A stretch of 64,000 bases of DNA from Actinacidiphila epipremni. Its GTDB lineage: Bacteria; Actinomycetota; Actinomycetes; Streptomycetales; Streptomycetaceae. Position 1 is the first letter of the stretch, and each line of letters opens with the position of its first letter. The stretch covers positions 310,001 to 374,000 of the forward strand of contig NZ_JAATEJ010000002.1 in NCBI RefSeq assembly GCF_012034175.1. Direction: 5' to 3'. A model generated the notes under the pieces. It searched no databases. It was not told where the DNA came from and saw only the letters and a program-made list of their open reading frames with translations. A program made the position numbers and the translations under genes. Below, piece by piece: positions 19,375-64,000 of this stretch.

Positions 19375-19379
19375 TGCTT

Positions 19380-19629: not shown

Positions 19630-19661
19630 GAGGACGTCCGGGAACTGCTGTGCGAGTGGTC

Positions 19662-20058
19662 CAGTGGTTCGCCCATGCCAAATTCATGGTCGGCGTGACG
19701 GGCGTGGTCCGCAACGAGGCGGGAGAGGTCCTGCTCCTCAAGCACCGCATGTGGCCTGCGGATCGACCGTGGGGGCTTCCCACCGGTTACGCGGTCAAGA
19801 GCGAGGAGTTCCCGGAGACCGTCGTTCGAGAGGTCCGGGAGGAGGCCGGTCTTGAGGTTGTTCCGGGACGGCTGGTCCAGGTGACCAGCGGATACAAGCT
19901 GCGCGTGGAGATCGCGTACGAAGCTCTGTGCACGGGGGGGAACTCTCAAGCTCGACAGCTTCGAGATCCTGGAGGCGGCATGGTTCAGCCCGGACGCACT
20001 CCCGGAGGGAATGCAGGAGAGCCATATCCAGCTCATCAAGTCGGGCCTGCCCGCCTGA
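19662..20058 (+). pseudogene. NUDIX hydrolase, copy 2 (N-terminal junction, +1 frameshift)
   Basis: This copy retains FMVGVTGVVRNEAGEVLLLKHRMW and the full Nudix box (GYAVKSEEF, REVREEAGLEV). It would be a nucleotide-diphosphate-type hydrolase if intact. At the same G run as copy 1 it has seven Gs followed by AACTCTC, one base too many. The rest (LKLDSFEILEAAWFSPDALP) reads in another frame to a stop at 20058. The first codons are fused to a 32-base XRE-gene remnant, so the natural start is lost. Confidence 0.85.
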
Positions 20059-28746: not shown

Positions 28747-34403
<5,657 letters not shown>

Positions 34404-34404
<1 letters not shown>

Positions 34405-48791: not shown

Positions 48792-49530
48792 CGCCGCGGC
48801 CGGCGACGTATCCGGCCACGTACCCGGCGACGCAGCCGACGACGCAGCCGACGACGTGCCCCGCGACACACCCAACGCAGCCGACACCGCACCGGTCACC
48901 GTAAAGCCGCGCGCAAAGCGCCCGTAAAGCCCGCCGGGCAGCGGCCGACGGCCCCGAAGGGCAATTTTCGGCGCCGGAACGGCCGCCTCCGCTGCACCCG
49001 TGGCACCCCCGGGCGGCCCCGCCGCCGGGACAGCCGTCCTGCGTGCCCGGGGCGCGGCCGGGGCCGCCGTTCCCGCCGCGGCGCCGCGCCCGGCCCGCGC
49101 CCGCCCGGCGCCGCGGGCCCTCCCGCGCCGCGCCCGGCCTGCGCGTTCCCGGCCCGTACGGCCGCCCCCGCGGGCACGGCGCAGGGCCGTGCGGCCCGCC
49201 GTTGCCCGCCGGACGGTCCCCGGCGGAGCCGATCGCGGCGGCCGAACGGAAGGCCAGATTCCCGGGTGCTCGGGAAGAGTTCCCCTATCTATGGGGAACG
49301 GCCGAAATCTAGCCTCATGACGGTCCTCAGGGCGCCCTGTGCAGGCAAAGTACGCGCGAAGCCCCCGGCGGCCCCCTGCCCGACCGCGCTCCACCGTCAC
49401 ACCGCCACACCGTTACAACGCCCCGCCGAAACGCCGTTTCACCGCCCCGCCGCAACGCCCGCCCGACCGTCCGTCTGTTCCACGGCACCCCCGCAGGAAG
49501 CCCCACCGCTGCCGAGCAAAGGACCGATCG
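48792..49530. other. Non-coding leader region between NRPS and hydrazine-type operons
   Basis: These 739 bases contain open frames that are Arg/Pro/Ala-rich and look like translation shadows of GC-rich DNA; I see no real gene. The notable element is the promoter at 49272-49315. If transcription starts near 49322, the MetRS-like gene has an unusually long leader of about 210 bases. No riboswitch was recognised in it. Confidence 0.5.
49272..49315 (+). promoter_or_regulatory. Palindrome + TAGCCT promoter upstream of the MetRS-like gene
   Basis: GGGAA-GAG-TTCCC (49272-49284) is followed after exactly 25 bases by TAGCCT (49310-49315), a likely -10. A further inverted repeat, GTTCCCC-N7-GGGGAAC, occupies 49279-49299 where a -35 would be. 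The same palindrome and spacing occur upstream of the cupin gene (62843-62886). This placement suits an activator binding just upstream of RNA polymerase, probably the LuxR regulator at 61995. Confidence 0.7.
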
Positions 49531-51075
49531 ATGGAACGCATGCTGGTGATCGCCCCCGGCCCCACCGCCAACGGCGATCTGCACCTCGGCCACCTGGCAG
49601 GACCCTTCCTCAGCGCGGACGTCTGCGCGAGGTTCGCGCGGGCCGCCGGCCGGGACGTCCTCTTCGGGACCGGCGTGCACTTCACCCAGAACTACATCGT
49701 GACCACCGCCCGCCGCCTCGGCGTCCCGCCGGACGAGCTGCGGACCAGGTCCGCCGAGCAGGTCGAGGGCACCCTCGCGGCGGTCGGCATCGAGCCGGAC
49801 GGCTTCGTACGCTTCGACGAGCGCTACGTCACCGGCGTCCAGCAGTTCTTCGGCCGGCTCCACGACGCCGGCAAGCTCAAGCTCCGCTCCCTGCCGTTCC
49901 CTTACGTGGCCCGCACCGGCGAATACCTCACCGACGCCTATGTGCGCGGTACGTGCCCGGTCTGCCTGTCCGAGGGGTGCGCCGGGCTGTGCGAGAGCTG
50001 CGGGCACTGGATCGCCTCCGGCGACCTGCTGGAGCCGCGCTCGACGCTGAACCCCGACGACGAGGTGGAGCTGCGCGAGGCGCAGGTGCTGGTGCTGCCC
50101 CTGGAGGAGTACCGCGAGGCGCTGACCGAATACTTCGCCGGCCTGGCCGGCACGATGCGCCCGCGGCTGGCGCGGATGGCCGAGGAGCTGCTGTCCCGCC
50201 CGCTGCCGGACTACCCGGTGACGCTGCCGATCGCCTGGGGCATCCCGGCGCCCTTCCCGAAGGTCCCCGAGGTCGAGGGCCAGGTGATCTACGCCGACTC
50301 CGAGGTGATCGCCTGGAGCATGCACAGCTCCGCGCTCGCCGCCGAGCAGCGCGGCGAGAAGCCGGCCGGCGACGACGCGCTGTGGTTCGCCGAGTCCGGC
50401 GCCCGCGTCGTCTACTTCTTCGGCTCCGACGCCGGTTTCGCCTTCGGGCTGGTCGGGGTGGCGATGCTGATGGCGCTCGGCGGCTACACGCTGCCCGCGC
50501 ACTTCGTGACCAACGAGTTCTACGAGCTGGACAACGACAAGTTCTCCACCAGCCGCGGCCATGTGGTGACCGGCCGGGGGCTGGCCGCCGAGGTGCCGCG
50601 CGACCTGATCCGCTTCTACCTCGCCGCCACCGCCCCGGACTTCCAGCGCACCAACTTCAGCCGCGCCGCCATGGACAAGGTGGTCTCCGCCCGGCTGGTG
50701 GCGCCCTGGAACCGGGTCGCGGACAAGGCCGGCCGGTTCGCCGGCGGCGGGCCGCTGCCGGTGTCGGCGCGCTCGCGGGAGGCGGCGGCGCGGACGGTGG
50801 AGCGATTTTCGGCCGGATATGACGCGCGTCGATTCAGCCTCACCGACGCCGCTTTCACGCTCACCGAGCAGCTGGGCCGGCTCGACCGGTGGGAGGTGAC
50901 CGCGGCGGACGCCGGGGACTTCTGCCACGAGGTGGACGTCTTCCTGCGCTGTGCCGCGCCGTTGCTGGTGGACCTCGCCGCGAAGGCGCTGCCCGACCTG
51001 GCCGTGCCCGCCGTCTCCTCGGTCACGGAGGTGGCGCCCCGCGTGCTGCCCCGGCTGGCCGAGATTGCGCAGTGA
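49531..51075 (+). CDS. Methionyl-tRNA-synthetase-like protein (probable hydrazine synthetase subunit)
   Basis: A 514-residue class I MetRS homologue: HLGH at 18-21 (HIGH motif), zinc knuckle Cys142/145/154/157 and KFSTS (KMSKS motif). It is placed among biosynthetic genes, so it is unlikely to be the housekeeping enzyme. In s56-p1 and triacsin biosynthesis a cupin/MetRS-like didomain protein joins N6-hydroxylysine to glycine through an N-N bond. Here the MetRS part stands alone and a cupin gene lies at 62990. By analogy it would adenylate glycine (or another acid). Its stop overlaps the next gene (GTGA). Confidence 0.82.
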   Translation: MERMLVIAPGPTANGDLHLGHLAGPFLSADVCARFARAAGRDVLFGTGVHFTQNYIVTTARRLGVPPDELRTRSAEQVEGTLAAVGIEPDGFVRFDERYVTGVQQFFGRLHDAGKLKLRSLPFPYVARTGEYLTDAYVRGTCPVCLSEGCAGLCESCGHWIASGDLLEPRSTLNPDDEVELREAQVLVLPLEEYREALTEYFAGLAGTMRPRLARMAEELLSRPLPDYPVTLPIAWGIPAPFPKVPEVEGQVIYADSEVIAWSMHSSALAAEQRGEKPAGDDALWFAESGARVVYFFGSDAGFAFGLVGVAMLMALGGYTLPAHFVTNEFYELDNDKFSTSRGHVVTGRGLAAEVPRDLIRFYLAATAPDFQRTNFSRAAMDKVVSARLVAPWNRVADKAGRFAGGGPLPVSARSREAAARTVERFSAGYDARRFSLTDAAFTLTEQLGRLDRWEVTAADAGDFCHEVDVFLRCAAPLLVDLAAKALPDLAVPAVSSVTEVAPRVLPRLAEIAQ

Positions 51076-52130
51076 GGGCCCGGTCCGCACGGGTGGTGGT
51101 GGTCGGCGCCGGGGTCACCGGGCTGCTGACGGCGGTGGAGTGCGTGCTCGCCGGCCATCACGTCACCGTGCTCGACCGCGGTGCGATCCCGGACCCGGCC
51201 GCGACCTCGTACGACCAGCACCGGGCGCTGCGCGGCCTGGCGGTCGGCGACGCGCCGGCCACCGCCCGGATGAGCCAGGCGGTGCGCCGCTGGGAGCAGT
51301 TGGAGCCGGTGCTGGGCGCGGGCTTCTACCGCCGGGTGGGCGTGGTCACGGCGTGGCCGCGCGAACGCCTCGCGGAGGTGCTGAACTTCGCGTCGGCCGC
51401 GGGTGTGCCGGTCCGGACGCTGGGCCCGGCCGCGCTGCCGCAGCTGGCCTTCCCCGCCGGGACGGTGGGTGTACGGGAGACGCGCGCGGGTGTGCTGCTG
51501 GCGGCGCGGGTGCTGCGGGCGGCGGCCAGGTGGCTCGCGGGCCGGGCCGCGGCGGCGCTGCGGCCGTACAGCCCGGTGACGGCGGTCGACGCGCATAGCG
51601 GCAAGGTCACGCTGGCCGGCGGCGAGGTGGTGGCCGGCGACATGGTGCTGGTCGCGGCGGGGCCGTGGACGGGCCGGCTGGTCGAGGTGCCCGCGGTGCT
51701 GCACCGCCAGACGATGCTCTACCTGCGGCCCTCGCCCCGGCAGGCGCGCCGCTGGCGGGGCGCCCCGGCGGTCGGCGGGCTCGGCGCGGACGGTACGGCG
51801 TGGGCGGTGCCGCCGGTGGCCGGCACGCTGCTGAAGATCAGCTCGGACGCGGTGTGCCGGCAGGTCGCCGACACCGGCGCGGACGGTGAGATCCAGACGC
51901 CGTGGGCGGAACGGCTGACGCACGCCGGGCCGCTCCGCGACCCTTCCGGCTACCAGGTGGTGGCCGTCACGGCGTGCCACTACACGACCGACACGGCGGA
52001 CGGCGGCGCGCGGCTGGCCCGGCTGGGTCCCGCGCTCTGGGCGCGTACGGCCTGCGGGGGCTCGGGGTTCTCGTCGGCGCCGCTCGTCGCGGCGACGGTG
52101 GCGCAAGCCGCCAGGGAGGCTGTTTCATGA
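51072..52130 (+). CDS. FAD-dependent DAO-type oxidoreductase
   Basis: A 352-residue flavoprotein starting with the Rossmann motif VVVVGAGVTGLLTAVE and containing TSYDQHRALRGLA and the C-terminal TACGGSGFSSAPLVA FAD segment of the D-amino-acid oxidase superfamily. In the hydrazinoacetate pathway a homologue (Spb39 in s56-p1) oxidatively cleaves the Lys-Gly hydrazine adduct to release hydrazinoacetic acid. Direct coupling to the MetRS-like gene (GTGA overlap) supports that role. The substrate assignment is inference. Confidence 0.8.
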   Translation: MRARSARVVVVGAGVTGLLTAVECVLAGHHVTVLDRGAIPDPAATSYDQHRALRGLAVGDAPATARMSQAVRRWEQLEPVLGAGFYRRVGVVTAWPRERLAEVLNFASAAGVPVRTLGPAALPQLAFPAGTVGVRETRAGVLLAARVLRAAARWLAGRAAAALRPYSPVTAVDAHSGKVTLAGGEVVAGDMVLVAAGPWTGRLVEVPAVLHRQTMLYLRPSPRQARRWRGAPAVGGLGADGTAWAVPPVAGTLLKISSDAVCRQVADTGADGEIQTPWAERLTHAGPLRDPSGYQVVAVTACHYTTDTADGGARLARLGPALWARTACGGSGFSSAPLVAATVAQAAREAVS

Positions 52131-53482
52131 CCGGCTCGACCGATGCGAACGACGCGAACGCTGCGGACGACGCGAACAACCCCGACGACGGGGCCCCGGT
52201 GAACGTGCGCGACACGCTCCGGGCCACCCCCATGCCGGTGCGCTACCTGCTGGGCGGCGTCCTGGTCAACCAGCTCTGCGCGTTCGTCCAGACGTTCCTG
52301 GTGCTGTACCTGATCCACCGGCACATGTCCGTGGACGCGGCGGGCCTGGCCCTGGTCGCGTACAGCGCGGGCACGATCCTCGGCACCATGCTGGGCGGCG
52401 AGGCCACCTCGCGGTTCGGGCCGCGGATGACGATCGTGGTGACGATGGCGGGCGCGGGGCCGCTGGTCGCGGTGATCCCGGCGCTGAGCCGGTCGAGCCT
52501 GCTGGCGCCGCTGCTGGTGGTCGTGGCGCTCGCGGGGCTGCTGGCGCAGGCGTACCGGCCGGCCGCCTCGGTGCTGCTGAGCGACCTGATGCCGGAGAAG
52601 CACCAGGTGATGGCGTTCTCGATGATGCGGATCGCGCTGAACACCGGCGCCGCGCTCGCCCCGCTCATCGCCGCCGGGCTGATCCTGGTGGACTGGGACG
52701 CGCTGTTCTGGCTGGACGGCGCGACGACGCTGGTCTACGCGGCCCTGGCCCTCGCGCTGCTGCCGCGGCAGGTGCCGGCGGCGCACGAGAAGGCCGGGGG
52801 CACGCAGGAGGCGGCCGACGGGCCCGCGCCGCTCACCGGACGGGCCGCGTACGCCGCGATGCTGCGGGACCGCAAGTACATGTTCTACCTGGCGGCGGTG
52901 CTGCTCGGCACGATCACCTACGTCCAGTCGCTCATCGCGCTGCCGTTGCAGATCGACGCCGACGACTACCCGACCGGGCTGTACAGCGCGGTGCTCACCG
53001 TGTCCTCGCTGGTGCTGATCACCTGCGAGCTGAAGGTCACCACGTACATCCTGCGGATGCCGACGCACACCGCGGTGGTGCTCGGCCACCTGGTCAACTC
53101 GCTGGGCTTTGCCGTCTACGGGCTCGCGGCGCACTCGCCCGCGTTCATCCTGATCGGCGCGGTCTTCGAGGTGAGCGGGCTGATGATCGCCGGGCCCAGC
53201 ATGTTCGCGCATCCGGCGGCCTTCCCCGCGGCGCTCAAGGCCCGCTACATCGGCACGATGCAGGCCACCGCCGGGCTCGCCTCGGCGCTCGGGCCGCTCT
53301 TCGCGGTCTTCGTCTGGACCCGGCTGGACCACGGCTTCTGGGTGCTGTGCGCGGTGGTCAACGGGGTGGCGGGCCTGCTGGCCATGGCCGGCCTCAACCG
53401 CGGGGACGGCAAGGGCAGCGCCGCCGGGCAGGACGAACCGCGTCAGGGCAAGACGGAAGAAGTCGTCGGAGGCACCGCATGA
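52127..53482 (+). CDS. MFS transporter
   Basis: A 451-residue major-facilitator protein with an Asp/Asn/Ala-rich cytoplasmic N-terminus (about 30 residues) and around 11-12 hydrophobic helices. It has a loop motif after helix 2 (GEATSRFGPRMT) and a central charged loop. It is probably an exporter of the cluster product and is the second MFS exporter in the cluster, after the one fused to the NRPS. It overlaps the preceding stop and the following start (both ATGA-type), so it is part of the same tightly coupled operon. Confidence 0.88.
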   Translation: MTGSTDANDANAADDANNPDDGAPVNVRDTLRATPMPVRYLLGGVLVNQLCAFVQTFLVLYLIHRHMSVDAAGLALVAYSAGTILGTMLGGEATSRFGPRMTIVVTMAGAGPLVAVIPALSRSSLLAPLLVVVALAGLLAQAYRPAASVLLSDLMPEKHQVMAFSMMRIALNTGAALAPLIAAGLILVDWDALFWLDGATTLVYAALALALLPRQVPAAHEKAGGTQEAADGPAPLTGRAAYAAMLRDRKYMFYLAAVLLGTITYVQSLIALPLQIDADDYPTGLYSAVLTVSSLVLITCELKVTTYILRMPTHTAVVLGHLVNSLGFAVYGLAAHSPAFILIGAVFEVSGLMIAGPSMFAHPAAFPAALKARYIGTMQATAGLASALGPLFAVFVWTRLDHGFWVLCAVVNGVAGLLAMAGLNRGDGKGSAAGQDEPRQGKTEEVVGGTA

Positions 53483-54819
53483 CAGAGCAGCACACTACGG
53501 CCGCGCGCACCGGGCCGGTGGTGATCGTCGGCTTCGTGGCGCTCACCATCCCGTTCATCGAGACCTTCCAGCCGGAGGACTCGGTGGTGTACGTCGAGGA
53601 GCCGGACGTCGCGCGCAAGCGGGACGCGCAGGCCAAGCTCGCCGGGGTCGGGTTCGCCCGCGGCCTGGTCGAGTGGGAGTACCACCGGCCGGGCACGGCG
53701 GACGAATTCCACGCCGCCCACCCCGACCTGGACCCGGTCGCGATCGTCCCGGCCGTGGAGTACGCGGTGCCGTTCGCGGCCCGGCTCGCCGAGCGGTACG
53801 GGCTGCCGGGCGCGAGCCTGGGCGCCGCGCTGATCCTGCGGGACAAGGCGGTGCTGCGCCGGGTCAGCGCGGCGGCGGGCATCGCCAACCCGGCGAGCGT
53901 CCGGGCCGAAAGCGCCGAGGACGTACGGGAGTTCCTGCGCGCCCACCCGGGCCCCGCGGTGCTCAAGCCGGCCAACCGGCAGGCGTCGGTGGGCGTACGG
54001 GTGCTCGCGGGGCCGGACGAGGCCGAAGCGGCGTGGGCGGAGTGCGTGGTGCAGGACGAGGGCGTCTTCGTGCCCGACCGGCCGATGGAAGTGGCCATGC
54101 TGGTCGAGCAGTTCGTGCGGGGCGAGGAGTTCAGCGTCGAGATGCTGGTGCGCGGCGGCCAGCCGCTGTTCACCAACGTCACCGGCAAGCACCTCTACCC
54201 GGGCCCGTATCCGGTGGAGTCGGCGCATGTCGTGCCGGCCGACATCCCGGCGGAGCTGTCGCGGCTGCTGGGCGCGCAGACCGCGCGGCTGATGGCGGCG
54301 GTCGGCTTCGGCGACGGCGTGGTGCACTGCGAGTGGATCGTGTCCGGCGGAGTGCCGTACCTGGTGGAGTGCGCGGGCCGGATGGCCGGTGACGCGATCC
54401 TCGACCTGATCGAGGCCGCCTACCCGGTGGAGTTCATGCGGGCCTACTTCGCGGTGCTCAAGGGCGAGCAGCCGCCGGAGCTGCCGGCACGGGCCAAGAG
54501 CGGCGCGGCCGTGCGGTTCCTGGCGCCCGGGGCCGGCACGGTCCAGGCCGTGCACGGCGTCGAGGACGCCGAGCGGGCCGAGGGCGTGGTCTTCGCCAAC
54601 TGCGCGATCGCGCCCGGCACTTCCTTCGGCGGCCTGCGCAACTCCTGGGACCGCACGGGCATCGTCTTCGCCCGCGCCGACACCCCGGCCGAGGCACACC
54701 GGCGGGCCGACGCCGCCGCCGCGCTGGTCCGGTTCGAGATGCGGCCACCAGGCGGCGAACCGGACGGCGCGCCGGGCAGCGGAACGGACGGCGATCCGGG
54801 CAGCGATCCGGCGGCGTGA
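53479..54819 (+). CDS. ATP-grasp ligase (first of two)
   Basis: The 446-residue protein joins a carboxylate to an amine through an acylphosphate. It shows VLKPANRQASVGVRVL (ATP-binding Lys and flexible loop), AMLVEQFVRGEEFSVEML, VHCEWIVSGGVPYLVECAGRMAGD (metal-binding acidic residue; Cys-Ala in place of the usual Asn-x before Arg) and a Gly/Asp-rich tail. In peptide pathways such enzymes act as L-amino-acid ligases. It could add an amino acid outside the NRPS logic. The gene is 49 bases upstream of the N-hydroxylase. Confidence 0.85.
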   Translation: MTEQHTTAARTGPVVIVGFVALTIPFIETFQPEDSVVYVEEPDVARKRDAQAKLAGVGFARGLVEWEYHRPGTADEFHAAHPDLDPVAIVPAVEYAVPFAARLAERYGLPGASLGAALILRDKAVLRRVSAAAGIANPASVRAESAEDVREFLRAHPGPAVLKPANRQASVGVRVLAGPDEAEAAWAECVVQDEGVFVPDRPMEVAMLVEQFVRGEEFSVEMLVRGGQPLFTNVTGKHLYPGPYPVESAHVVPADIPAELSRLLGAQTARLMAAVGFGDGVVHCEWIVSGGVPYLVECAGRMAGDAILDLIEAAYPVEFMRAYFAVLKGEQPPELPARAKSGAAVRFLAPGAGTVQAVHGVEDAERAEGVVFANCAIAPGTSFGGLRNSWDRTGIVFARADTPAEAHRRADAAAALVRFEMRPPGGEPDGAPGSGTDGDPGSDPAA

Positions 54820-54868
54820 ACACGCAACACCTGACCTTGGAAGGCATCACCGTCATCGAGGGGGCACC

Positions 54869-56152
54869 ATGACTCACCGCGAGGTTGATGTACTGGCGAT
54901 CGGCGCGGGTCCGGCGAATCTGGCGCTGGCCGCGGCGATCGAGGAGAGCGGATCGGCCGAACTCGCGGAGAACACCCTTCTCCTGGAGCAGGCTCCCGAC
55001 ATCAAGTGGCAGCGCGATCTGCTGATGCCCTGGGCGCGCAGCCAGGTGTCCTTCCTGAAGGACCTGGTGACGCTGCGCAATCCGCGGAGCAAGTTCTCGT
55101 TCCTGAGCTTCCTGCACGACCACGGCCGGCTCGACCACTTCGTGAACCTGGGCACCTTCCACCCCTACCGGTGGGAGTTCTCCGACTACCTCCAGTGGGT
55201 GGCCAAGTCCCTGGAGCACGTGCAGATCCGCTACAGCGCGCGGGCCGCGTCGGTCACCGCCGACCGGGACGCGCACGGCGCGGTGACCGGCTGGACGGTG
55301 ACGCTGACCGACGGCGACACGATCCACTGCCGCGACCTGGTGATCGGCGGCGGCCGGGACCCGCACATCCCCGAGCCGTTCAAGGGGCTGCCGAAGGAGC
55401 GGGTCATCCACAGCTCCGGCTACCGCGGCCGGATCGCCGAGATCCCCAAGGACCAGCCGGTGCGGGCGGTCGTGGTGGGCGGTGCGCAGAGCGCGGCGGA
55501 GATGTTCTTCGCGCTGCACGAGAACCTGCCGCACAGCCACATCACGATGGTGGTGCGCTCGATCGGGCTGCAGAACTACCAGACCAGCAAGTTCGTCAAC
55601 GAGCTGTTCTTCCCGTCGTTCGTCGACGAGTTCTACGACAGCCCGCAGGAGGTGCGCGCGCAGGTCCTGGACGAGATGCGGTTCACCAACTACGCGGGCC
55701 TCGCGCCGCCGTTCCTGGACGAGCTGTACACGATGCTCTACCGCAACCGGATGCTGGGCGCGGAGCGTTCGGAGGTGCGGGCGCTGACCGAGGTGACCGG
55801 TGCGCGGATCGAGGACGGCGACGTCGTGCTGGACCTGCGGGACCGCAAGACCGGCAAGGAGTCGCCGCTGCGCTGCGACCTGGTGCTGCTGGGCACCGGT
55901 TACGACGCCCGGATGCCGGCGCTGGTACGGGAGTTGGCGGAGGGCGCCGGGATCGACCAGGTCAGCGTGAGCCGCAACTACCGGGTGGACCTGGGCACTC
56001 CGGCGCCGGGCGCGCTGTATCTGCAGGGCGTCAACGAGGCCACGCACGGTATCGCCGACTCGCTGATCAGCGTGCTGGCGCACCGCAGCCAGGACATCGT
56101 CACCGACCTGCTGACCCGGCGCAGCGGCGCGGAAGCCGGGGCGGCGCGATGA
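54869..56152 (+). CDS. Lysine/ornithine N-hydroxylase (class B flavin N-monooxygenase)
   Basis: A 427-residue NADPH/FAD enzyme that hydroxylates the side-chain amine of lysine or ornithine. Visible are the FAD motif AIGAGPANLALAA, the substrate segment QVSFLKDLVTLRNPRSKFSFL, the NADPH motif VVGGAQSAAEMFFAL and the C-terminal ATHGIADSLISVL. There is no hydroxamate acyltransferase in the window, which argues against a siderophore. Together with the MetRS-like and cupin genes it suggests N-hydroxylation ahead of N-N bond formation. Lys versus Orn preference cannot be told by eye. The stop overlaps the next gene (ATGA). Confidence 0.9.
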   Translation: MTHREVDVLAIGAGPANLALAAAIEESGSAELAENTLLLEQAPDIKWQRDLLMPWARSQVSFLKDLVTLRNPRSKFSFLSFLHDHGRLDHFVNLGTFHPYRWEFSDYLQWVAKSLEHVQIRYSARAASVTADRDAHGAVTGWTVTLTDGDTIHCRDLVIGGGRDPHIPEPFKGLPKERVIHSSGYRGRIAEIPKDQPVRAVVVGGAQSAAEMFFALHENLPHSHITMVVRSIGLQNYQTSKFVNELFFPSFVDEFYDSPQEVRAQVLDEMRFTNYAGLAPPFLDELYTMLYRNRMLGAERSEVRALTEVTGARIEDGDVVLDLRDRKTGKESPLRCDLVLLGTGYDARMPALVRELAEGAGIDQVSVSRNYRVDLGTPAPGALYLQGVNEATHGIADSLISVLAHRSQDIVTDLLTRRSGAEAGAAR

Positions 56153-57447
56153 GCCGGGGCACTTTGCTGGTGATCGGCAGTGGGCTGAAGGTCTACCGGG
56201 AGTATCTGGTGGCGCCGATCAGCCGGCGGGCGCGCGAGGCGGGCCTGGAGACGGTGCTGCTGAACAACCTCAAGCCGACGTGGCAGCGCGACTACTTCGA
56301 CGAGGTCGTGGTCGCCAACGTCTTCGACTCCGAGACGATGGGTAGGGCCGCCCGCGAGGTGGCCGCGCGCCGCAACGTGGTGAGCCTGATGTGCTGGGAC
56401 GAGCCGCTGGTGCTCGACGCGGGGCTGCTGGCCGCGGAGTTCGGGGTGCCGGGCCTGTCGGCGCGCGGGGTGCGCGGCTGCCGGGACAAGGAGCTGACCC
56501 GGGCCGCGCTGACCGAGGCGGGCCTGCCGCAGCCGGGCTTCGCGCTGACGACGACGGTGGAGCAGGCCAGGGCCGAGGCGGCGCGGATCGGCTACCCGGT
56601 GGTGGTCAAGCCGCGGGCGATGGGCGCGAGCATCGGCGTGGTCTTCGCCGCCGACGAGGCGGAGCTGGACGCGGCGTTCGGCGTCGCGCTGGCCGCCAGC
56701 GGGGTGGACCCGGGGCCGTACCGGGCGAGCGTCATCGTCGAGGCGTACGCGCCGGGTCCGGAGATCAGCGTGGACGGGGCGGTGCACAAGGGCGAGTACC
56801 TGCCGCTGTTCGTGGCCCGCAAGCACAGCAGCGACCACCCGTACTTCGAGGAGACCGGCCACACCGTGGACGCGGCCGATCCGCTGCTGGACGACAAGGA
56901 GCTGATGGGCACCCTGGCGCGCGCGCACCAGGTGCTGGGCGTCGAGGACGGCATCACCCACAGCGAGGTGCGGCTGACCCCGCGCGGGCCGCTGATCGTG
57001 GAGGTCAACGGCCGGCTCGGCGGCGACCTGATCCCCTTCCTGGGGCGGATCGCGACCGGTGTCGAGCCCGGTGAGGTGCTCTTCGACGTGGCGACGGGCC
57101 AGCGCCCGACGATCACCCACACCCGGCGGGCGGTGGCCGGCATCAGGTTCGGCATCCCGCCCGAGGACTGCCTGCTGAACGCGGTCAGGGTCCCGCAGCC
57201 GGGCGCCGCGCCGGGCCTGGTGGCGGCGGCGCCGATGGCCGAGCCCGGCACCACGCTGCGGCTGCCGCCGGGCGGCTACCTGGCCAGGCACTCCTTCGTG
57301 GTGTGCGAGGCCGACGACCTGCCGGGCTGCCAGCAGCGGCTGGAGGCGGCGGCGGCGCTGGTGGAGCTGGACACCGCGCCGGTGGGCCCGGCGGACCCGG
57401 ACGCGCCGTTCGCGATGCCGGCCGGGCTGCTGGACGTGGACGAGTGA
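56149..57447 (+). CDS. ATP-grasp ligase (second of two)
   Basis: A 432-residue ATP-grasp protein with an N-terminal Rossmann-like pre-ATP-grasp domain (LLVIGSGLKVYREYLVAPIS), VVKPRAMGASIGVVF, VEAYAPGPEISVDGAV and EVRLTPRGPLIVEVNGRLGGD. The EVNGR metal/ATP site is fully canonical, unlike the first copy. It probably forms a peptide or amide bond to a hydrazine or amino group. The gene is coupled to the N-hydroxylase by a four-base overlap. The C-terminal 100 residues include a beta-rich domain common to L-amino-acid ligases. Confidence 0.87.
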   Translation: MSRGTLLVIGSGLKVYREYLVAPISRRAREAGLETVLLNNLKPTWQRDYFDEVVVANVFDSETMGRAAREVAARRNVVSLMCWDEPLVLDAGLLAAEFGVPGLSARGVRGCRDKELTRAALTEAGLPQPGFALTTTVEQARAEAARIGYPVVVKPRAMGASIGVVFAADEAELDAAFGVALAASGVDPGPYRASVIVEAYAPGPEISVDGAVHKGEYLPLFVARKHSSDHPYFEETGHTVDAADPLLDDKELMGTLARAHQVLGVEDGITHSEVRLTPRGPLIVEVNGRLGGDLIPFLGRIATGVEPGEVLFDVATGQRPTITHTRRAVAGIRFGIPPEDCLLNAVRVPQPGAAPGLVAAAPMAEPGTTLRLPPGGYLARHSFVVCEADDLPGCQQRLEAAAALVELDTAPVGPADPDAPFAMPAGLLDVDE

Positions 57448-57526
57448 GCGGCGTGGGCGGCCCGGGCGGCATGAGCGACGCGGGCGGCGCGGCCGGACGG
57501 GCGAGGGACGAGCAAAGGACGAGCGC

Positions 57527-58729
57527 ATGACGACGACTGCCGGCATCCACGGCGGCGAGCCGGACACGGCCGCGGAGATCCTGGCCCGGGCCAGGGCGCT
57601 CGCGCCGACCCTGCGGGAGCGGGCCGCCGACATCGAGAGCCACCACCGGCTGCCCGACGACGTGGTCGAACTGCTGCGCGGCACCGGCGTGTTCCGGATG
57701 TGCTCGGCCCGCGAGTGGGGCGGCCCGGAGCTGACGTCCATGGACCAGACACGGGTCGTGGAGGCGCTGGCGTACGGGGACGCGTCCGCGGCCTGGTGCG
57801 CGGTGATCGGCGCCAACACCGGGCTGATCGCGAACTTCCTGGACCCGGACGTGGTCAAGGAGATCTATCCGCGCCAGGACATGGTCACCGCGGGTGTGCT
57901 CGCCCCCGCGGGGCACGCCGAGCGGGTCCCCGGCGGCTTCCGGCTGTCCGGGCGCTGGCCCTTCGGCAGCGGCATCCACCACAGCGACTGGGTGACGTCG
58001 GGCGCCTTCGTCTTCCAGGACGGCGAGCCCTACGCGAGCCCCGACGGCAGCAACCCGCACGAGTCGCGGCAGTTCCTGGTGGCCCGCGCGGACGTCGAGA
58101 CGATCGACAACTGGGACACCACCGGCCTTGCCGGCACCGGCAGTTGCGACTACACGATCACCGACGTGTTCGTGCCGGAGAACCACACCTTCACCTTCTA
58201 CGAGCCGCGCGGCCGGACCAGCCCGCTCTCCCAGCCGGAGTCCTTCATGCGGGCGCTGTGCGGGGTGCCGCTCGGGGTGGCGAAGGCCGCGCTGGACCAC
58301 GCCCGGTCGGTCGCGACCACCCGGGTGGACCGGATGACGGGTACCGCCTGGTCCGACAGCTGGCGGGTGCAGGTCGCGCTCGCCGAGTGCACGGCCGAGC
58401 TCAACGCCAGCCGGCAGGGCGTCTTCGCCGCGATGACCCGGCAGTGGGAGGTGCTGGCGGCCGGCGGCGAGCTGACGCCCGACGAGCGCGCCGCGTCCCC
58501 GCTGGCGTGGCTGCACGCCTTCCGCACCGCCCGCTCGGTGGTCAACCGGCTCTACGACCTGCTCCAGACCTGGTCGATCAACAAGTCCTCGCCCATGGAC
58601 CGCTGGCTGCGCGACACCGCGACGATGTGCCAGAACCTGACGGCGCAGGACGTCGTCCTGGAGTCGGTCGGCGCCTATCTGCTCGGCGGCACGCCCAAGT
58701 TCCGCATCAGCCTCGGCATCACCACCTGA
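57527..58729 (+). CDS. Acyl-CoA-dehydrogenase-fold flavoenzyme, copy 1
   Basis: A 400-residue protein of the acyl-CoA dehydrogenase / flavin-dependent hydroxylase superfamily: GVFRMCSAREWGGPEL, GDASAAWCAVIGANTG, GRWPFGSGIHHSDWV, GTGSCDYTITDVFVP and DRWLRDTATMCQN. The FGSG/S-x-W region resembles the HsaA/pigment-hydroxylase branch more than true acyl-CoA dehydrogenases. It is followed 79 bases later by a paralogue of identical length. In this cluster it might oxidise a hydrazine to a hydrazone, azo or diazo group, or act as an N- or C-hydroxylase. ATG at 57527 follows AAAGGA. Confidence 0.85.
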   Translation: MTTTAGIHGGEPDTAAEILARARALAPTLRERAADIESHHRLPDDVVELLRGTGVFRMCSAREWGGPELTSMDQTRVVEALAYGDASAAWCAVIGANTGLIANFLDPDVVKEIYPRQDMVTAGVLAPAGHAERVPGGFRLSGRWPFGSGIHHSDWVTSGAFVFQDGEPYASPDGSNPHESRQFLVARADVETIDNWDTTGLAGTGSCDYTITDVFVPENHTFTFYEPRGRTSPLSQPESFMRALCGVPLGVAKAALDHARSVATTRVDRMTGTAWSDSWRVQVALAECTAELNASRQGVFAAMTRQWEVLAAGGELTPDERAASPLAWLHAFRTARSVVNRLYDLLQTWSINKSSPMDRWLRDTATMCQNLTAQDVVLESVGAYLLGGTPKFRISLGITT

Positions 58730-58808
58730 CGCGTACCGCGGGGCCGGGACGCGGGGCGGTACGAGGAATCCGTACGACGTAGGACGACACCAGCTGAGGG
58801 GCGATGAC

Positions 58809-60011
58809 ATGACGTTGACCACGGGTGCGCGGGAGCCGGTGACCGCGGCCGACCTGCTGGCGCGGGCCAGGGAGCTCGCGCCGACCCTGCGCGAGCGGGC
58901 CGCCGACATCGAGCAGCACCGCAAGCTGCCTGCCGACGTGGTCGAACTGCTGCGCGGCACCGGGGTGTTCCGGATGTGCTGGGGCCGCGAGTGGGGCGGC
59001 CTGGAGCTGACCTCCGTGGAGCAGACGGAGGTCGTGGAGGCGCTGGCGTACGGGGACGCGTCGGCGGCCTGGTGCGCGGTGATCGGCGCCAACACCGGTA
59101 TCTACGCCAACTTCATCGACCAGGCCACCGCGAAGGACATGTTCGCCGGCCCCGACACCATCACCGCCGGGCTGCTCCAGCCGTCCGGCCGGGCCGAACG
59201 GGTGCCCGGCGGCTACCGGTTGACCGGCCGCTGGCCCTTCGGCAGCGGTATCGACCACGCCGACTGGGTGACGTCGGGCGCCTTCGTCTTCCAGGACGGC
59301 GAGCCCTACGCGAGCCCCGACGGCAGCAACCCGCACGAGTCGCGGCAGTTCATGGTGCCCAGGTCCCAAGTCGAGCTGATCGACAACTGGCACACCACGG
59401 GCCTGTGCGGCAGCGGCAGTTGCGACTACACGATCACCGACGTGTTCGTGCCCGAGGAGCACACCTACACCTTCGGCGTGGTGCACGGCCGGCCCTCGCC
59501 GCTCGCGCAGCCCGACGCCTTCACCCGGGCGATGTGCGGGGTGCCGCTCGGGGTGGCGCGGGCCGCGCTGGACCACGCGCGGGAGCTGGCCACCGGGCGG
59601 ATCGACCGGATGACCGGCACCGCGTGGGCCGACAGCTTCCGGGCGCAGACCACGCTCGCGCTGTGCGAGGCCGACTTCAACGCCGCCCGCGCGGGCGTCT
59701 ACGGCAGCATGACCCGGCAGTGGGAGGTGCTGGCGGCCGGCGGCACCCTGGACGACCTGACCCCCGACGAGCGGGCGGCCTCGCCGCTGGCGTGGCTGCA
59801 CGCCTTCCGGATGTCGCGCTCGATCGTCAACCGGCTCTACGACCTGCTCCAGACCTGGTCGATCAACAAGTCCTCGCCGATGGACCGCTGGCTGCGCGAC
59901 ACCACCACGATGTGCCAGCACCTGATCGCGCAGGACCGCATCCTCCAGTCGGCCGGCGCCTATCTGGTGGGCGGCCGGCCCGAGTTCGGCATCAGCCTCG
60001 GCATCGTCTGA
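58809..60011 (+). CDS. Acyl-CoA-dehydrogenase-fold flavoenzyme, copy 2
   Basis: This 400-residue tandem paralogue of the preceding gene is highly similar throughout (GDASAAWCAVIGANTG, TSGAFVFQDGEPYASPDG, DLLQTWSINKSSPMDRWLRD are the same) but diverges at substrate-side segments (for example GIDHADW for GIHHSDW, AGPDTIT for PRQDMVT). It carries a short extra DDL insertion near residue 317. The pair may form a heteromer or catalyse successive oxidations of the same intermediate. No flavin reductase is adjacent, so a monooxygenase role would need one from elsewhere. Confidence 0.85.
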   Translation: MTLTTGAREPVTAADLLARARELAPTLRERAADIEQHRKLPADVVELLRGTGVFRMCWGREWGGLELTSVEQTEVVEALAYGDASAAWCAVIGANTGIYANFIDQATAKDMFAGPDTITAGLLQPSGRAERVPGGYRLTGRWPFGSGIDHADWVTSGAFVFQDGEPYASPDGSNPHESRQFMVPRSQVELIDNWHTTGLCGSGSCDYTITDVFVPEEHTYTFGVVHGRPSPLAQPDAFTRAMCGVPLGVARAALDHARELATGRIDRMTGTAWADSFRAQTTLALCEADFNAARAGVYGSMTRQWEVLAAGGTLDDLTPDERAASPLAWLHAFRMSRSIVNRLYDLLQTWSINKSSPMDRWLRDTTTMCQHLIAQDRILQSAGAYLVGGRPEFGISLGIV

Positions 60012-60054
60012 CCCGCCGGCCGCCGCGAGCGCGTCAGCACCGCCAAGCCCGCCG

Positions 60055-60074
60055 GCCGGCCCGTCCGGGCCGGC
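60055..60074 (+). terminator. Intercistronic GC hairpin
   Basis: GCCGGCCCG (60055-60063) and CGGGCCGGC (60066-60074) form a tight stem 30 bases before the radical SAM gene. It may attenuate read-through or mark a processing site. No T-run follows. Confidence 0.4.
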
Positions 60075-60103
60075 GCGGCCCCCACACTTTACGGAGAGAT
60101 CCG

Positions 60104-61831
60104 ATGAGCAGAGGTCTTGTGCTGCTGGTCAACCCCAACAAGGTGCATCCGCCGATCGCGCCCTACGCGCTCGACGTGCTGACCACCGCGTTGGAGGCCG
60201 CCGACTTCGAGGTGGAGGTGCTGGACCTCACCTTCCACCGGGAGGACTGGAAGTCCTGCCTCGCCGAGTACTTCGCCGTACGCGAGCCGATGCTGGTCGG
60301 CGTCACGGTCCGCAACACCGACACCGTCTACGCCTTCGAGCAGCGGCCGTTCGTCGGCGAGCACAAGGAGATCGTCACCGAGGTCAAGCGCCTCACCGAC
60401 GCCCCCGTGATCGCCGGCGGCATCGGCTTCTCGACGATGCCCTTCGCCCTGGTCGAGTACTTCGGCATCGACTACGGGGTCAAGGGCCCCGGTGAGCGGA
60501 TCATCTGCGACCTGGCGGACGCGCTGCTCACCGGCCGCGACCCGCACACCGTGCCGGGCCTGCTGGTCAACACCGGCGCGGGGGTCGTACGGGTGCCGCC
60601 GGCCGTGCTGAACCCGCGCCGCGGCCAGTCGCCGTTACCCCTTGCCACCGGGCAGTTCGAGGCGCGGGTGTGGCAGGTGGACCGCACGGCGTCGTACGTC
60701 CGCAGGTCGGGGGCGGCGTACAAGGTGGACAACCTCAAGTACTACCGGCGCGGCGGGCTCGGCAGCATCCTGACCAAGAACGGCTGCACGTACCGCTGCT
60801 CGCACTGCGTGGAGCCGGACGCCAAGGGCACCTCGTTCGGGCAGCGCGCGGTCACCGCGGTGGTGGACGAGATGGAGTCGCTGGCCGCGCAGGGCATCCT
60901 CGACCAGCACACCACCGACAGCGAGTTCAACCTGTCGATCGCGCACGCCAAGAACGTGCTGCGGGAGGTCGTCCGCCGCCGGCACTCCGACCCGGGCAGC
61001 CCGCTGAACGAGCTGCGGCTGTGGGTGTACTGCCAACCGCGGCCGTTCGACGAGGAGTTCGCCGACCTGCTGGCGCAAGCCGGCTGCTGCGGGGTCAACG
61101 TCGGCTCCGACCACATCAGGCCGGACCTGCTGGCGGGCTGGAAGGTCACCGAGAAGGGCACCACCTACTACGACTTCGCCGACACCGAGCGGCTGGTGCG
61201 GCTGTGCTCCGAGCGCGGCATCCTGACCATGGTGGAGGCGCTGTTCGGGATGCCCGGCGAGACGCCCGAGACGATGAAGGCGTGCGTCGACGCCTTCATG
61301 GCGCTGGACGCGACGGTCGCCGCCTTCTCGATGGGCCTGCGGCTGTTCCCGTACACCCCGATGGGCATCGCGATGGCCGAGCAGTGCGACGGGGTCCGCA
61401 CCCTGCCCGGGCTGCAGTCCAACACCGCGACCGGCCCGATCGTGCTCAAGCCGCTCGCGCAGTGCTCGGGACCCGCGGAGTACGAGCGGCAGTTCATGTT
61501 CGACGAGCACGGCGACTTCCGGCTGGTGTGCTACTTCTCGCCCGGCCTGCCGTGCGAGGCCGACGCGCCGGACGACCCGACGGCCCGCTGGAGCCCGGCG
61601 GTGGACCTGCTGTGGGACATGATCGACCCGGCCGAGCACTACCGGGTGATGCTGCCGACGATCGCCGGCTCCAGCACGTTCGACAACAACTACGCCGACA
61701 ACTCGTTCCTGACCGGCCTGACGGGCCTGGGCTACACGGGAGCCTTCTGGTCGCACTGGCGGGAGCGCGAGGAGATCATGCGCCGGGCCGGGGAGGGCGC
61801 CGCGGCCACCGCCGAGCCCGCCGAGTTGTAA
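60104..61831 (+). CDS. B12-binding radical SAM enzyme
   Basis: A 575-residue protein. Residues 1-150 form a Rossmann-like cobalamin-binding domain (LLVNPNKVHPPIAPYALDVL, GVTVRNTDTVY, IAGGIGFSTMP). I do not see the DxHxxG motif, so B12 would be bound base-off without a His ligand, as in TsrM-type enzymes. The radical SAM cluster motif is Cys228-x3-Cys232-x2-Cys235 (CTYRCSHC), followed by ALFGMPGETPETM. Such enzymes methylate or cyclise unactivated carbons. An in-frame TTA codon at 60635-60637 makes its translation bldA-dependent. ATG at 60104 has GGAGAG upstream. Substrate unknown. Confidence 0.88.
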   Translation: MSRGLVLLVNPNKVHPPIAPYALDVLTTALEAADFEVEVLDLTFHREDWKSCLAEYFAVREPMLVGVTVRNTDTVYAFEQRPFVGEHKEIVTEVKRLTDAPVIAGGIGFSTMPFALVEYFGIDYGVKGPGERIICDLADALLTGRDPHTVPGLLVNTGAGVVRVPPAVLNPRRGQSPLPLATGQFEARVWQVDRTASYVRRSGAAYKVDNLKYYRRGGLGSILTKNGCTYRCSHCVEPDAKGTSFGQRAVTAVVDEMESLAAQGILDQHTTDSEFNLSIAHAKNVLREVVRRRHSDPGSPLNELRLWVYCQPRPFDEEFADLLAQAGCCGVNVGSDHIRPDLLAGWKVTEKGTTYYDFADTERLVRLCSERGILTMVEALFGMPGETPETMKACVDAFMALDATVAAFSMGLRLFPYTPMGIAMAEQCDGVRTLPGLQSNTATGPIVLKPLAQCSGPAEYERQFMFDEHGDFRLVCYFSPGLPCEADAPDDPTARWSPAVDLLWDMIDPAEHYRVMLPTIAGSSTFDNNYADNSFLTGLTGLGYTGAFWSHWREREEIMRRAGEGAAATAEPAEL

Positions 61832-61994
61832 TGTCGCCGCAACAAATTTCGCTGAGCACCCGCGATTCTTTTCCCGTACTTATCCGGGATCACGAGGGCA
61901 CTTGCGGTCCACTCTTCCCTGCCCCATCCTGGTACCCGCTCCACCAGAACCATCACGAAAGGCACGCTGCGGGAAATCCATTGTAGAGGGGCAA

Positions 61995-62762
61995 ATGAGT
62001 CAGCAGGAAAACACCACGAGATTACTTCGGCAACTCCCGCACCACGGGAACACAGAACGGCGGGACGATTCGGGCCGCGCTCCCGAGGGGGAAGATGCGT
62101 CCCCGCGCCGGGCTCCTGCTCCGCTCACCGTCCTGCTCGCCGACGCACAACCCGCGATCCGGCACGGCGTCCGATCGCTGCTCGAACACATCAGCGACAT
62201 CTCGGTGGTCGGGGAGGCCACCACCGCGGACGAGGTGCTGGCCGAGACCTCGCGCTGCAAGCCCGACGTCCTGGTCGTCGACCCGCTGATGGACGGGCCG
62301 ACCGGGGTGCAGGTCATCAGCCAGGTGTTACGGATGACGCCGGCCACGGGCGTGCTGGTCTTCAGCTCCGTGGACGACGACAAGGCGATCACCTCGGCGC
62401 TGCACGCCGGCGCCCGCGGCTACCTCATCAAGCGGGCGAACGCCGACCAGATCCTGCGCGGCATCCAGGCGGTCGCGGCCGGCGAGGCGATCGTGGACAA
62501 GTCGATCGCCGACCGGCTCAGCGACCTCATCCGCCCGGCCGGCGGGCAATACTGCTACCCGTTCCCGCAGCTCACCAACCGGGAGCGCGAGGTGCTGGAA
62601 CGCATTGCGGCCGGCAAGTCCAACAGCACCATTGCCCGGGAACTCGCACTGGCCTCGAAGACCATCAGCAATCGGGTCTCGGCGATCTTCGGCAAGCTCG
62701 GAGTGGCCGATCGCGCGCAGGCCATTGTATTAGCCAGGGATGCGGGCCTCGGGCATGGCTGA
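61995..62762 (+). CDS. Orphan NarL/LuxR-type response regulator, bldA-dependent
   Basis: This 255-residue putative cluster activator has an unstructured leader (1-42), a receiver domain (43-165) and a LuxR HTH (190-250, LTNREREVLERIAAGKSNSTIARELALASKTISNRVSAIFGKLGV). The likely phospho-Asp is D96 and the Lys is K146. The first acidic pair is D50-A51, where typical receivers have two acidic residues, so phosphorylation may be atypical. No kinase gene is nearby. Three in-frame TTA codons (62022, 62328, 62730) are present, an exceptional number, which ties the cluster to bldA. ATG at 61995 follows AGAGGGG. Confidence 0.9.
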   Translation: MSQQENTTRLLRQLPHHGNTERRDDSGRAPEGEDASPRRAPAPLTVLLADAQPAIRHGVRSLLEHISDISVVGEATTADEVLAETSRCKPDVLVVDPLMDGPTGVQVISQVLRMTPATGVLVFSSVDDDKAITSALHAGARGYLIKRANADQILRGIQAVAAGEAIVDKSIADRLSDLIRPAGGQYCYPFPQLTNREREVLERIAAGKSNSTIARELALASKTISNRVSAIFGKLGVADRAQAIVLARDAGLGHG

Positions 62763-62829
62763 GGCGCTTTATGCGGCGCGGCGCACGGGAAAACGGCCCC
62801 GGCCCGGTATTTCCGTACCGTACCGCAGA

Positions 62830-62886
62830 TTCCCCGGGGAAAGGGAAGACTTCCCCTGCCCCCCGGGAGTGCCGGGAACCTAGCCT
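62830..62886 (+). promoter_or_regulatory. Palindrome + TAGCCT promoter upstream of the cupin gene
   Basis: TTCCCCGGGGAA (62830-62841) abuts GGGAA-GAC-TTCCC (62843-62855). Exactly 25 bases later comes TAGCCT (62881-62886). The arrangement duplicates that at 49272-49315. It separates the LuxR gene from the cupin gene and probably drives cupin and downstream genes under LuxR control. Confidence 0.7.
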
Positions 62887-62989
62887 GAGGACTGTCGCAC
62901 GGCCATCCAGCACCGCCGCACAGCACCGCCGCACAGCACGGCCGTCCAGTACGGCCTTCCTGTCACCGGACGCCGATCGGAGCGGGACG

Positions 62990-63445
62990 TTGACCGACCA
63001 CGAGCACGCCGACGTGACCATCCGCGCCCAGGAGCCGGACAACCTCGTCCGGGCCCACGGGCTCGACCTCAGCCTCCTCCACCCCTTCCCGGGGCTCGAC
63101 TCGCCCTTCCGCGGCGCCTGGTGCGTGCTGCGCCCCGGCGATGTCACGGAGACGCACGCGCACCACGACCGGGAGATCTTCATCGTGATGTCCGGCCGCG
63201 GCACCCTCGTCGAGGGCGGCCGGCGGCACGAGATCGCGGCCGGGGACCTGGCGTACATCAAGGCCGACGTGGAGCACAGCGTCGTCAACGAGCACGACGA
63301 GGACTTCGCCTATTACGCGGTCTGGTGGGACCGGGCGATGTCGGAGGAGTTCCTGGCGCGGGCGGAGTTCCCGGCCGAGGAGCAGCCGGTCGCGCAGGAG
63401 CTGCCCGGCGTGGCGGAGCTGCCCGACGCGGTGCCGGCGTCGTGA
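62990..63445 (+). CDS. Small cupin metalloprotein (probable partner of the MetRS-like protein)
   Basis: A 151-residue single-domain cupin. Motif 1 (ETHAHHDREIFIVMSG) supplies His56, His58 and Glu62, and motif 2 (GDLAYIKADVEHSVVN) supplies His96, giving a complete metal site. In known hydrazine synthetases the cupin part performs the rearrangement that makes the N-N bond, after the MetRS-like part has activated the amino acid. TTG at 62990 (GGAG eight bases upstream) is preferred because the longer frame is Arg/Ser-rich leader DNA containing the promoter. The stop overlaps the next gene (GTGA). Confidence 0.8.
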   Translation: MTDHEHADVTIRAQEPDNLVRAHGLDLSLLHPFPGLDSPFRGAWCVLRPGDVTETHAHHDREIFIVMSGRGTLVEGGRRHEIAAGDLAYIKADVEHSVVNEHDEDFAYYAVWWDRAMSEEFLARAEFPAEEQPVAQELPGVAELPDAVPAS

Positions 63446-63765
63446 TCGACTTCGAGGGGCGGCGCTTCCGCGCGCCGGACGGCGACGCCGCGACCGAGGC
63501 CGTCTACCACCAGCAGGACGACTTCGTGTGGGGCGAGGTGGCCGGCGGCGCGATCCGGCGCGGATGGACGGCCGGCACCCGGATGCCGGACGGCTCGCTC
63601 GCGATGGGCTACACCTTCGTCTTCACCTCGGGCGAGATCGTGTGCGGGCGCAGCGTGAACACCCCGGAGCTGACCGAGGACGGCCGGGTGCGGCTGCACG
63701 AGGTGTGGGAGCGCTACGGCCCGCACGCGGCGACCGGCACGTCGTGCATCGAGGAGGTGGCCTGA
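63442..63765 (+). CDS. Small calycin-like protein of unknown function
   Basis: A 107-residue protein (FEGRRFRAPDG, DDFVWGEVAGGAIRRGWTAG, GYTFVFTSGEIVCGRSVNTPE, VRLHEVWERYG) similar to small bacterial beta-barrel proteins often misannotated as 'n-acetylglutamate synthase'. Its strands suggest a ligand-binding barrel. It overlaps the cupin stop by four bases and is followed two bases later by an FAD oxidoreductase, so it sits in the cupin operon. Biochemical role unknown. Confidence 0.6.
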   Translation: MIDFEGRRFRAPDGDAATEAVYHQQDDFVWGEVAGGAIRRGWTAGTRMPDGSLAMGYTFVFTSGEIVCGRSVNTPELTEDGRVRLHEVWERYGPHAATGTSCIEEVA

Positions 63766-63767
63766 GC

Positions 63768-64000
63768 GTGGCAGCGGGCAAGACGCCGACCGAGGCGGAC
63801 TGGGAGCGGCTGGCGAAGGCCGTCGCGGGGCGGGTGCTGCGGCCGGGCGAGGCGGGGTTCCGCTCCTCCAGCGCGCCGTTCAACACCCGGCACACCGCCG
63901 TCGTGCCCGGCGGCGTGGTCCAGGTCGCCGAGGTCGCCGACGTGCGGCGGGCGGTGGAGTGGGCCCGCGAGACCGGGGTGCCGGTGGTACCGCGCGGCGG
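63768..64000 (+). CDS. FAD-binding (PCMH/BBE-type) oxidoreductase, 3'-truncated by window end
   Basis: The 77 visible residues (WERLAKAVAGRVLRPGEAGF, RHTAVVPGGVVQVAEVADV, RRAVEWARETGVPVVPRGG) are the start of a vanillyl-alcohol-oxidase/berberine-bridge-type FAD domain. The final RGG is the flavin-phosphate loop. GTG at 63768 begins two bases after the preceding stop. The rest lies outside the window. It shows that the biosynthetic cluster continues to the right and includes a further oxidation step. Confidence 0.8.
   Translation, partial: MAAGKTPTEADWERLAKAVAGRVLRPGEAGFRSSSAPFNTRHTAVVPGGVVQVAEVADVRRAVEWARETGVPVVPRG

Follow-up and report, generated by a model that had tools for sequence, protein, structure and literature searches.

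A putative two-protein hydrazine synthetase in a rearranged, TsrM-carrying gene cluster of Actinacidiphila epipremni

Introduction

In passages of Aravind et al. 2010 (PMC2922099), paralogues of methionyl-tRNA synthetase (MetRS; MtRS in that paper) are described either as fused to a cupin or as having a standalone cupin nearby, typically encoded by the gene 5' of theirs, in predicted operons that also encode a lysine N6-monooxygenase and ATP-grasp ligases. The relevant parts of a 2021 paper (PMC8664883) report that enzymes of this kind sometimes exist as two standalone proteins, that nitrogen-nitrogen (N-N) bond formation was reconstituted with separated halves, that gene pairs were tested, that the ester has a half-life under 10 minutes, and that the standalone cupin RHS1 of Rhodococcus jostii, from a cluster chosen for its saccharopine dehydrogenase homologue, forms the N-N bond. 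Further pairs, Kit1-Kit2 of Kitasatospora gansuensis and Afn8/Afn9 of albofungin, appear in sections of PMC11705231. Here we analyse a 64,000-nucleotide stretch of Actinacidiphila epipremni DNA (the window; contig NZ_JAATEJ010000002.1, positions 310,001 to 374,000), which carries genes for a class I MetRS homologue of 514 amino acids (the MetRS-like protein; 49531-51075) and for a cupin (62990-63445). We put the probability that these are the separate halves of one hydrazine synthetase, encoded within the gene set described below, at roughly 0.87.

The closest described systems share parts of this arrangement. PyrN (pyrazomycin; 9l8v), as presented in part of PMC8664883, has a homologous MetRS-like fold and shares the adenylation motifs and the cupin pattern HxHxxxE...H, but is one fused protein that uses glutamate, whereas here two proteins are encoded 11.9 kb apart. 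RHS1 (5uqp) and the standalone MetRS-like protein of R. jostii are, like the window pair, separate proteins, and the standalone cupin is active; RHS1 has Asp63 where the window cupin has His. While the unfused cupin typically lies 5' of MtRS in the operons described in PMC2922099, the window cupin lies beyond genes for a TsrM-type protein and a LuxR-type regulator; the text consulted of that paper does not contain "radical SAM", and its passages concerned name no avidin-like protein. Clusters on the Deinococcus ficus plasmid pDFI1 (L037) and on Pantoea (L039) and Klebsiella (L040) plasmids also encode an N-hydroxylase, a cupin and a MetRS-like protein, but have the cupin adjacent and no TsrM annotated in the stretches covered. 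On the Pantoea and Klebsiella variicola plasmids, the N-hydroxylase, cupin and MetRS-like genes are consecutive. The azaserine cluster azs, in the parts of PMC10445470 concerned, and a look-alike locus (L034) share the N-hydroxylase, the DAO and the cupin and MetRS-like parts, but differ in having a fused cupin-MetRS-carrier protein, a nonribosomal peptide synthetase (NRPS) and hydrazinoacetate-loading genes.

Results

The MetRS-like protein matched PF09334 (201-203 bits), and its best match in the Protein Data Bank (PDB), both by sequence and by fold, was the MetRS-like domain of PyrN. Its adenylation motifs were intact, with HIGH present as LHLGH and the KMSKS-type motif as DKFSTS, and the AF2 model had a pLDDT of 88.4. 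A housekeeping MetRS encoded elsewhere in the genome scored 502 bits against PF09334 vs. 203 for the MetRS-like protein, which reached 192 against a cut-off of 587 with the MetRS equivalog models. In the MetRS tree the housekeeping MetRSs formed a separate group, and the MetRS-like protein also fell outside the clade of fused cupin-MetRS proteins (support 100/99). We predict that the MetRS-like protein activates an amino acid by adenylation and esterifies it to an N-hydroxy amine. A MetRS-like gene (28%) located between nod genes of Rhizobium etli p42d had no cupin in 11 kb, and its product joined the tree on a long branch next to the housekeeping MetRSs.

The cupin, predicted to be the N-N bond-forming half, starts with TTG, and several relatives begin with MTDHE at the same position. 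Its closest solved chains were 4rd7 and 4mv2, followed by RHS1 (E 7.6e-9). The metal-site pattern HxHxxxE...H was complete, with the essential Glu kept; residues H56, H58, E62 and H96, which match the PyrN pattern His50, His52, Glu56 and His90 given in part of PMC8664883, were invariant in 22/22 aligned homologues, and the HHEH site was present in all 41 cupins of the tree set. The preliminary description had placed a MetRS homologue at 49531, a DAO-type flavoprotein at 51072, an N-hydroxylase at 54869 and a cupin at 62990 and had tentatively assigned the MetRS-like protein and the cupin to a hydrazine synthetase. The Pfam matches, the metal site and the matches to PyrN and RHS1 bear this out; the MetRS-like protein did not cluster with housekeeping MetRSs, and the cupin proved similar to that of a hydrazine synthetase.

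To relate the two genes, we sampled 297 related genomes of the family, 39 of which encoded a MetRS-like protein of at least 41% identity. A cupin match (E≤1e-8) was found in 37 of the 39, and in the remaining two (G225 and G275) a less similar cupin lay 75 nt away from the MetRS-like match; exactly one cupin match at E≤1e-8 was present in 32/39. Within the genus, a cupin (E≤1e-15) was detected in 8 of 35 genomes. Seven of these are the genomes that encode this MetRS-like protein; the eighth, G103, has its cupin (35%) ~2 kb from a different MetRS-like gene. A class-wide search at E≤1e-90 had matches in 6 of 394 genomes and contributed G332, G533, G534 and G569 as new rows. The cupin tree, in which the deeper forks were weakly supported, agreed with the MetRS tree: the cupins encoded far from MetRS formed one clade (100/99) with Kutzneria basal, nested in the group of adjacent cupins. 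Judging by co-occurrence and matching trees, the two genes have been passed on jointly despite a distance of ~10 kb or more. Together with their adjacency in sister lineages, these results indicate that the two parts work together, as the preliminary description had supposed, and make a hydrazine synthetase formed by the pair well supported by comparative evidence.

The order N-hydroxylase, cupin, MetRS-like protein, DAO was found in Saccharothrix, Nocardiopsis, Protofrankia, Frankia and a Micromonosporaceae metagenome-assembled genome (MAG). In the distal layout, present in 22 genomes, the cupin gene lay 9.6-12.6 kb from the MetRS-like gene, beyond the flavin monooxygenase, TsrM and LuxR genes. 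TsrM (at least 77% identity) was encoded in 22 of the 39 genomes, exactly the distal-cupin ones, and in 17/17 genomes without TsrM beside the pair the cupin gene adjoined the MetRS-like gene; G041 carried one locus of each layout. At E≤1e-100, TsrM occurred in 26 of the family genomes: the 22 distal ones and G013, G150, G245 and G121, which have TsrMs of 51-74% identity and lack this type of pair. The window protein (60104-61831), by homology a TsrM-type B12 radical S-adenosylmethionine (SAM) tryptophan 2-C-methyltransferase, matched TIGR04428 over its full length, far above the cut-off (1030 bits vs. 500), and 6wte with 1041 bits, here within a hydrazine-synthetase cluster. The LuxR-type response regulator gene (61995-62762; PF00196, PF00072), which lies between TsrM and the cupin, was found beside the cupin in 21/21 other distal loci, as were the genes for a 107-residue protein and an FAD-linked oxidase; the latter also occurred in two adjacent-type loci (G123 and G011). 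Both trees are compatible with the cupin having relocated once, in the TsrM-carrying lineage.

We compared the pocket of the MetRS-like protein across 63 rows, including two loci of the TsrM lineage (L014 and L016) that end before TsrM, using positions in E. coli MetRS numbering, set by alignment to 3h97. The window protein had G13, H52, Y251, D253, A297, A300, F301 and G305. PyrN had F13, A253, N297, L300, R301 and F305, and thus differs by Arg at 301, where the window has Phe, and from the small window residues at 13, 297, 300 and 305. Six of the eight fused rows showed P13, D52, W251, W253, N297, Y300, H301 and Y305 (Embleya and R. rhizogenes differ), and 10 of 11 TsrM-free sister rows, the Micromonosporaceae MAG being the exception, showed A13, Q52, N251, N253, N297, P300, F301 and G, A or M at 305. 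The combination H52/Y251/D253/A297 was present in 21/21 TsrM-carrying rows vs. 0/15 adjacent-type rows of the family genomes, and in all 13 named loci with TsrM, Kutzneria included, but was absent from each of the 12 remaining named loci that lie outside the TsrM lineage. Among 120 homologues from a protein search, 71 had this combination, 27 were of QNNN type, 15 of HYHA type and 7 others. By this alignment, it is in the TsrM lineage that pocket residues changed, and most of the replacements are smaller. Since smaller, more hydrophobic pocket residues arose in the TsrM lineage, a bulky aromatic substrate is indicated, and a bulky aromatic second amino acid is our leading guess; the change tentatively suggests 2-methyltryptophan, the obvious candidate, with one evolutionary event behind the suggestion. 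Glycine is likely not the second amino acid.

The 107-residue protein (63442-63765), whose gene overlaps the cupin stop by GTGA, was predicted to form an avidin-like eight-stranded barrel; it gave no PDB sequence match at E≤1 and no Pfam or NCBIfam match. In the 297 family genomes, 45 of its 46 close homologues were encoded within ~15 kb of a MetRS-like gene, compared with 0 of 104 weaker homologues. Proteins of this type accompany part of the split synthetases; none was found in the eight fused loci or in the D. ficus, Pantoea and Klebsiella clusters.

All genes of the set lie on the + strand. The MetRS-like gene is followed by genes for a DAO-type FAD oxidase (51072-52130; PF01266), which overlaps the MetRS-like stop, an MFS exporter (52127-53482; PF07690), an ATP-grasp/LAL amino-acid ligase (LAL1; 53479-54819; PF18603, PF13535), a Lys/Orn-type N-hydroxylase (54869-56152; PF13434, 300 bits), a second ATP-grasp ligase (LAL2; 56149-57447; PF13535) and two HsaA-like flavin monooxygenases of acyl-CoA-dehydrogenase fold (57527-58729 and 58809-60011; both PF08028, with NF045629 below cut-off). 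Beyond 63445 the set continues with the coupled 107-residue gene and the FAD-linked oxidase, which occupies 63768-64000 in the window and runs on to 65150. GTGA or ATGA overlaps join MetRS-like and DAO, DAO and MFS (ATGA at the MFS gene), MFS and LAL1, and N-hydroxylase and LAL2, as well as cupin and 107-residue genes. The D. ficus cluster encodes counterparts of the N-hydroxylase (50%), MetRS-like protein (47%), cupin (43%) and DAO (35%; the DAO of the Pantoea split cluster has 23%) and orthologues of both ligases (LAL1 47%, LAL2 44%), indicating that the core gene set crosses phyla.

The preliminary description had assigned the two halves to two operons under matching promoters. A scan of 48700-63100, which covers the sigma-70 type only, detected no sigma-70-like sites (0.3 expected), and one terminator-like site was seen, inside the MetRS-like gene (2.7 expected). 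As no promoter-like sites were found, there is no evidence of two operons, and the matching promoters fall away.

An upstream NRPS (40.5-46.7 kb) was considered as a cluster member and rejected, as it is not conserved with the hydrazine-synthetase genes. At E≤1e-8, NRPS and acyl carrier protein queries found no match in the 12 TsrM-lineage loci that include 10 kb upstream of MetRS (L011, L013, L015, L017-L023, L029 and L032); the NRPS query matched only L031, a TsrM-free MAG. Elsewhere in the window, a 1885-residue frame on the - strand (28747-34404) contains Condensation, AMP-binding, carrier and thioesterase domains and, after these, an MFS transporter domain (residues 1435-1766); it is apparently an NRPS fused to a transporter. 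A protein with Biotin_lipoyl and 2-oxoacid dehydrogenase acyltransferase domains (34404-35510, - strand) adjoins the NRPS genes. The G+C content drops to 58% at 18001-20000, against 67-78% in the other 2-kb steps of the window, and the GC3-based gene pick placed no gene from 17.8 to 20.2 kb.

Discussion

Our results point to a hydrazine synthetase made of two proteins, and the gene set suggests a pathway for it. The N-hydroxylase would act first, on the side-chain nitrogen of lysine or ornithine. A second amino acid would be adenylated by the MetRS-like protein and transferred, without tRNA, to the resulting hydroxylamine as a short-lived ester, which the cupin, by its metal and Glu62, would rearrange into the N-N bond. 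The DAO would probably then break one C-N bond of the hydrazine, and the two ATP-grasp ligases would assemble a small peptide for oxidation by the flavin monooxygenases and FAD oxidase. We infer all of this chemistry.

Several points weigh against this reading. Of the 22 distal genomes, two (G081, and G041 on contig 16) have a MetRS frame that appears disrupted or affected by sequencing errors, the MetRS tree carries a long-branch warning for outlying rows, and the Kutzneria cupin lies on the opposite strand. Because the trees point to one origin of the distal layout, the 22 distal genomes are not independent. The substrate class of the N-hydroxylase is ambiguous, as it scores similarly against an ornithine monooxygenase (3s5w, 261 bits) and a lysine monooxygenase (MbtG 9nns, 235 bits). 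Finally, among the DAOs of five fused-type clusters, Spb39 not being one of them, none matched the window DAO at E≤1e-3.

A tentative and rather doubtful extension is a three-part N-N system for 2-methyltryptophan, in which TsrM would supply the amino acid, the MetRS-like protein would accept it in a pocket widened by G13, D253, A297, A300 and G305, the avidin-like protein would shield the ester, or else the hydrazine, in transit to the cupin, and the ATP-grasp ligases would yield alpha-hydrazino-tryptophan peptides. In the open-licence literature we found nothing on 2-methyltryptophan with hydrazine, on TsrM with "hydrazin-", or on avidin with hydrazine, cupin and gene cluster.

The chances are about even that 2-methyltryptophan instead serves another step, such as ATP-grasp ligation or oxidation by a flavin enzyme, and that the synthetase uses a different amino acid. 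Within the stretches covered, a full LAL1 match was obtained in 13/13 TsrM loci vs. 1/8 TsrM-free loci (L028) in the same search; since LAL1 tracks the TsrM loci, it could be the enzyme that takes 2-methyltryptophan. The pocket substitutions follow a clade that arose once and could be neutral, or an adaptation to a different side chain. However, the LAL1 orthologue of the D. ficus cluster occurs without an annotated TsrM, and positions 52, 251, 253 and 297 differ between TsrM-carrying and adjacent-type rows, several of the pocket residues being small.

A reading along the lines of the preliminary description is that the pair joins N6-hydroxylysine and glycine and that the DAO frees hydrazinoacetic acid, as for s56-p1, triacsin and azaserine. 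In the Spb38/39/40-type pathway to hydrazinoacetic acid, the cupin and MetRS-like parts form a single polypeptide, unlike the separate genes of the window. The N-hydroxylase, DAO, MetRS-like protein and cupin required for this reading are all present, but the tree places the MetRS-like protein apart from the fused clade, its pocket lacks the Trp and Tyr residues of six of the eight fused rows, for which glycine specificity is itself deduced from cluster type, and the DAO is unlike those of the five fused clusters compared. In addition, no GNAT, AMP ligase or carrier is encoded among the genes found from 49531 to 65150, and these three are listed for hydrazinoacetate loading in the section of PMC10445470 on azs. 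A glycine route is therefore improbable here.

It is very unlikely that the cupin has another function, for instance in regulation, with the MetRS-like protein acting alone or with a different cupin: the cupin gene adjoins a LuxR gene and is 12 kb from the MetRS-like gene, but the single cupin match in most genomes, the co-occurrence, the agreeing trees and the orthologue adjoining the MetRS-like gene in sister genomes argue against it. A second or resistant methionyl-tRNA synthetase would agree with the PF09334 match but can practically be dismissed, given that PyrN is nearer than any MetRS among the matches listed, that a housekeeping MetRS is present, that the MetRS-like protein forms a separate clade and that its equivalog score is far below cut-off.

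The two-protein hydrazine synthetase is not in itself a new cluster type, as the preliminary description had proposed, since separate pairs are already found in passages of PMC2922099 (2010) and PMC8664883 (2021). The hydrazine-synthetase locus appears real, and its value lies in the rearranged TsrM lineage, the changed pocket and the avidin-like companion, which are the new part. Kit1-Kit2, whose primary paper is said to be Matsuda 2024, stands outside this comparison.

Enzymes that form N-N bonds are few and are wanted as biocatalysts. What this lineage offers is probably a naturally split hydrazine synthetase whose pocket differs from those of PyrN, which takes Glu, and of the fused rows. 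A role for the avidin-like protein, if true, would bear on how the ester is handed over between separate subunits, and the tie to a likely tryptophan-methylating enzyme makes the lineage a candidate source of aromatic hydrazino acids.

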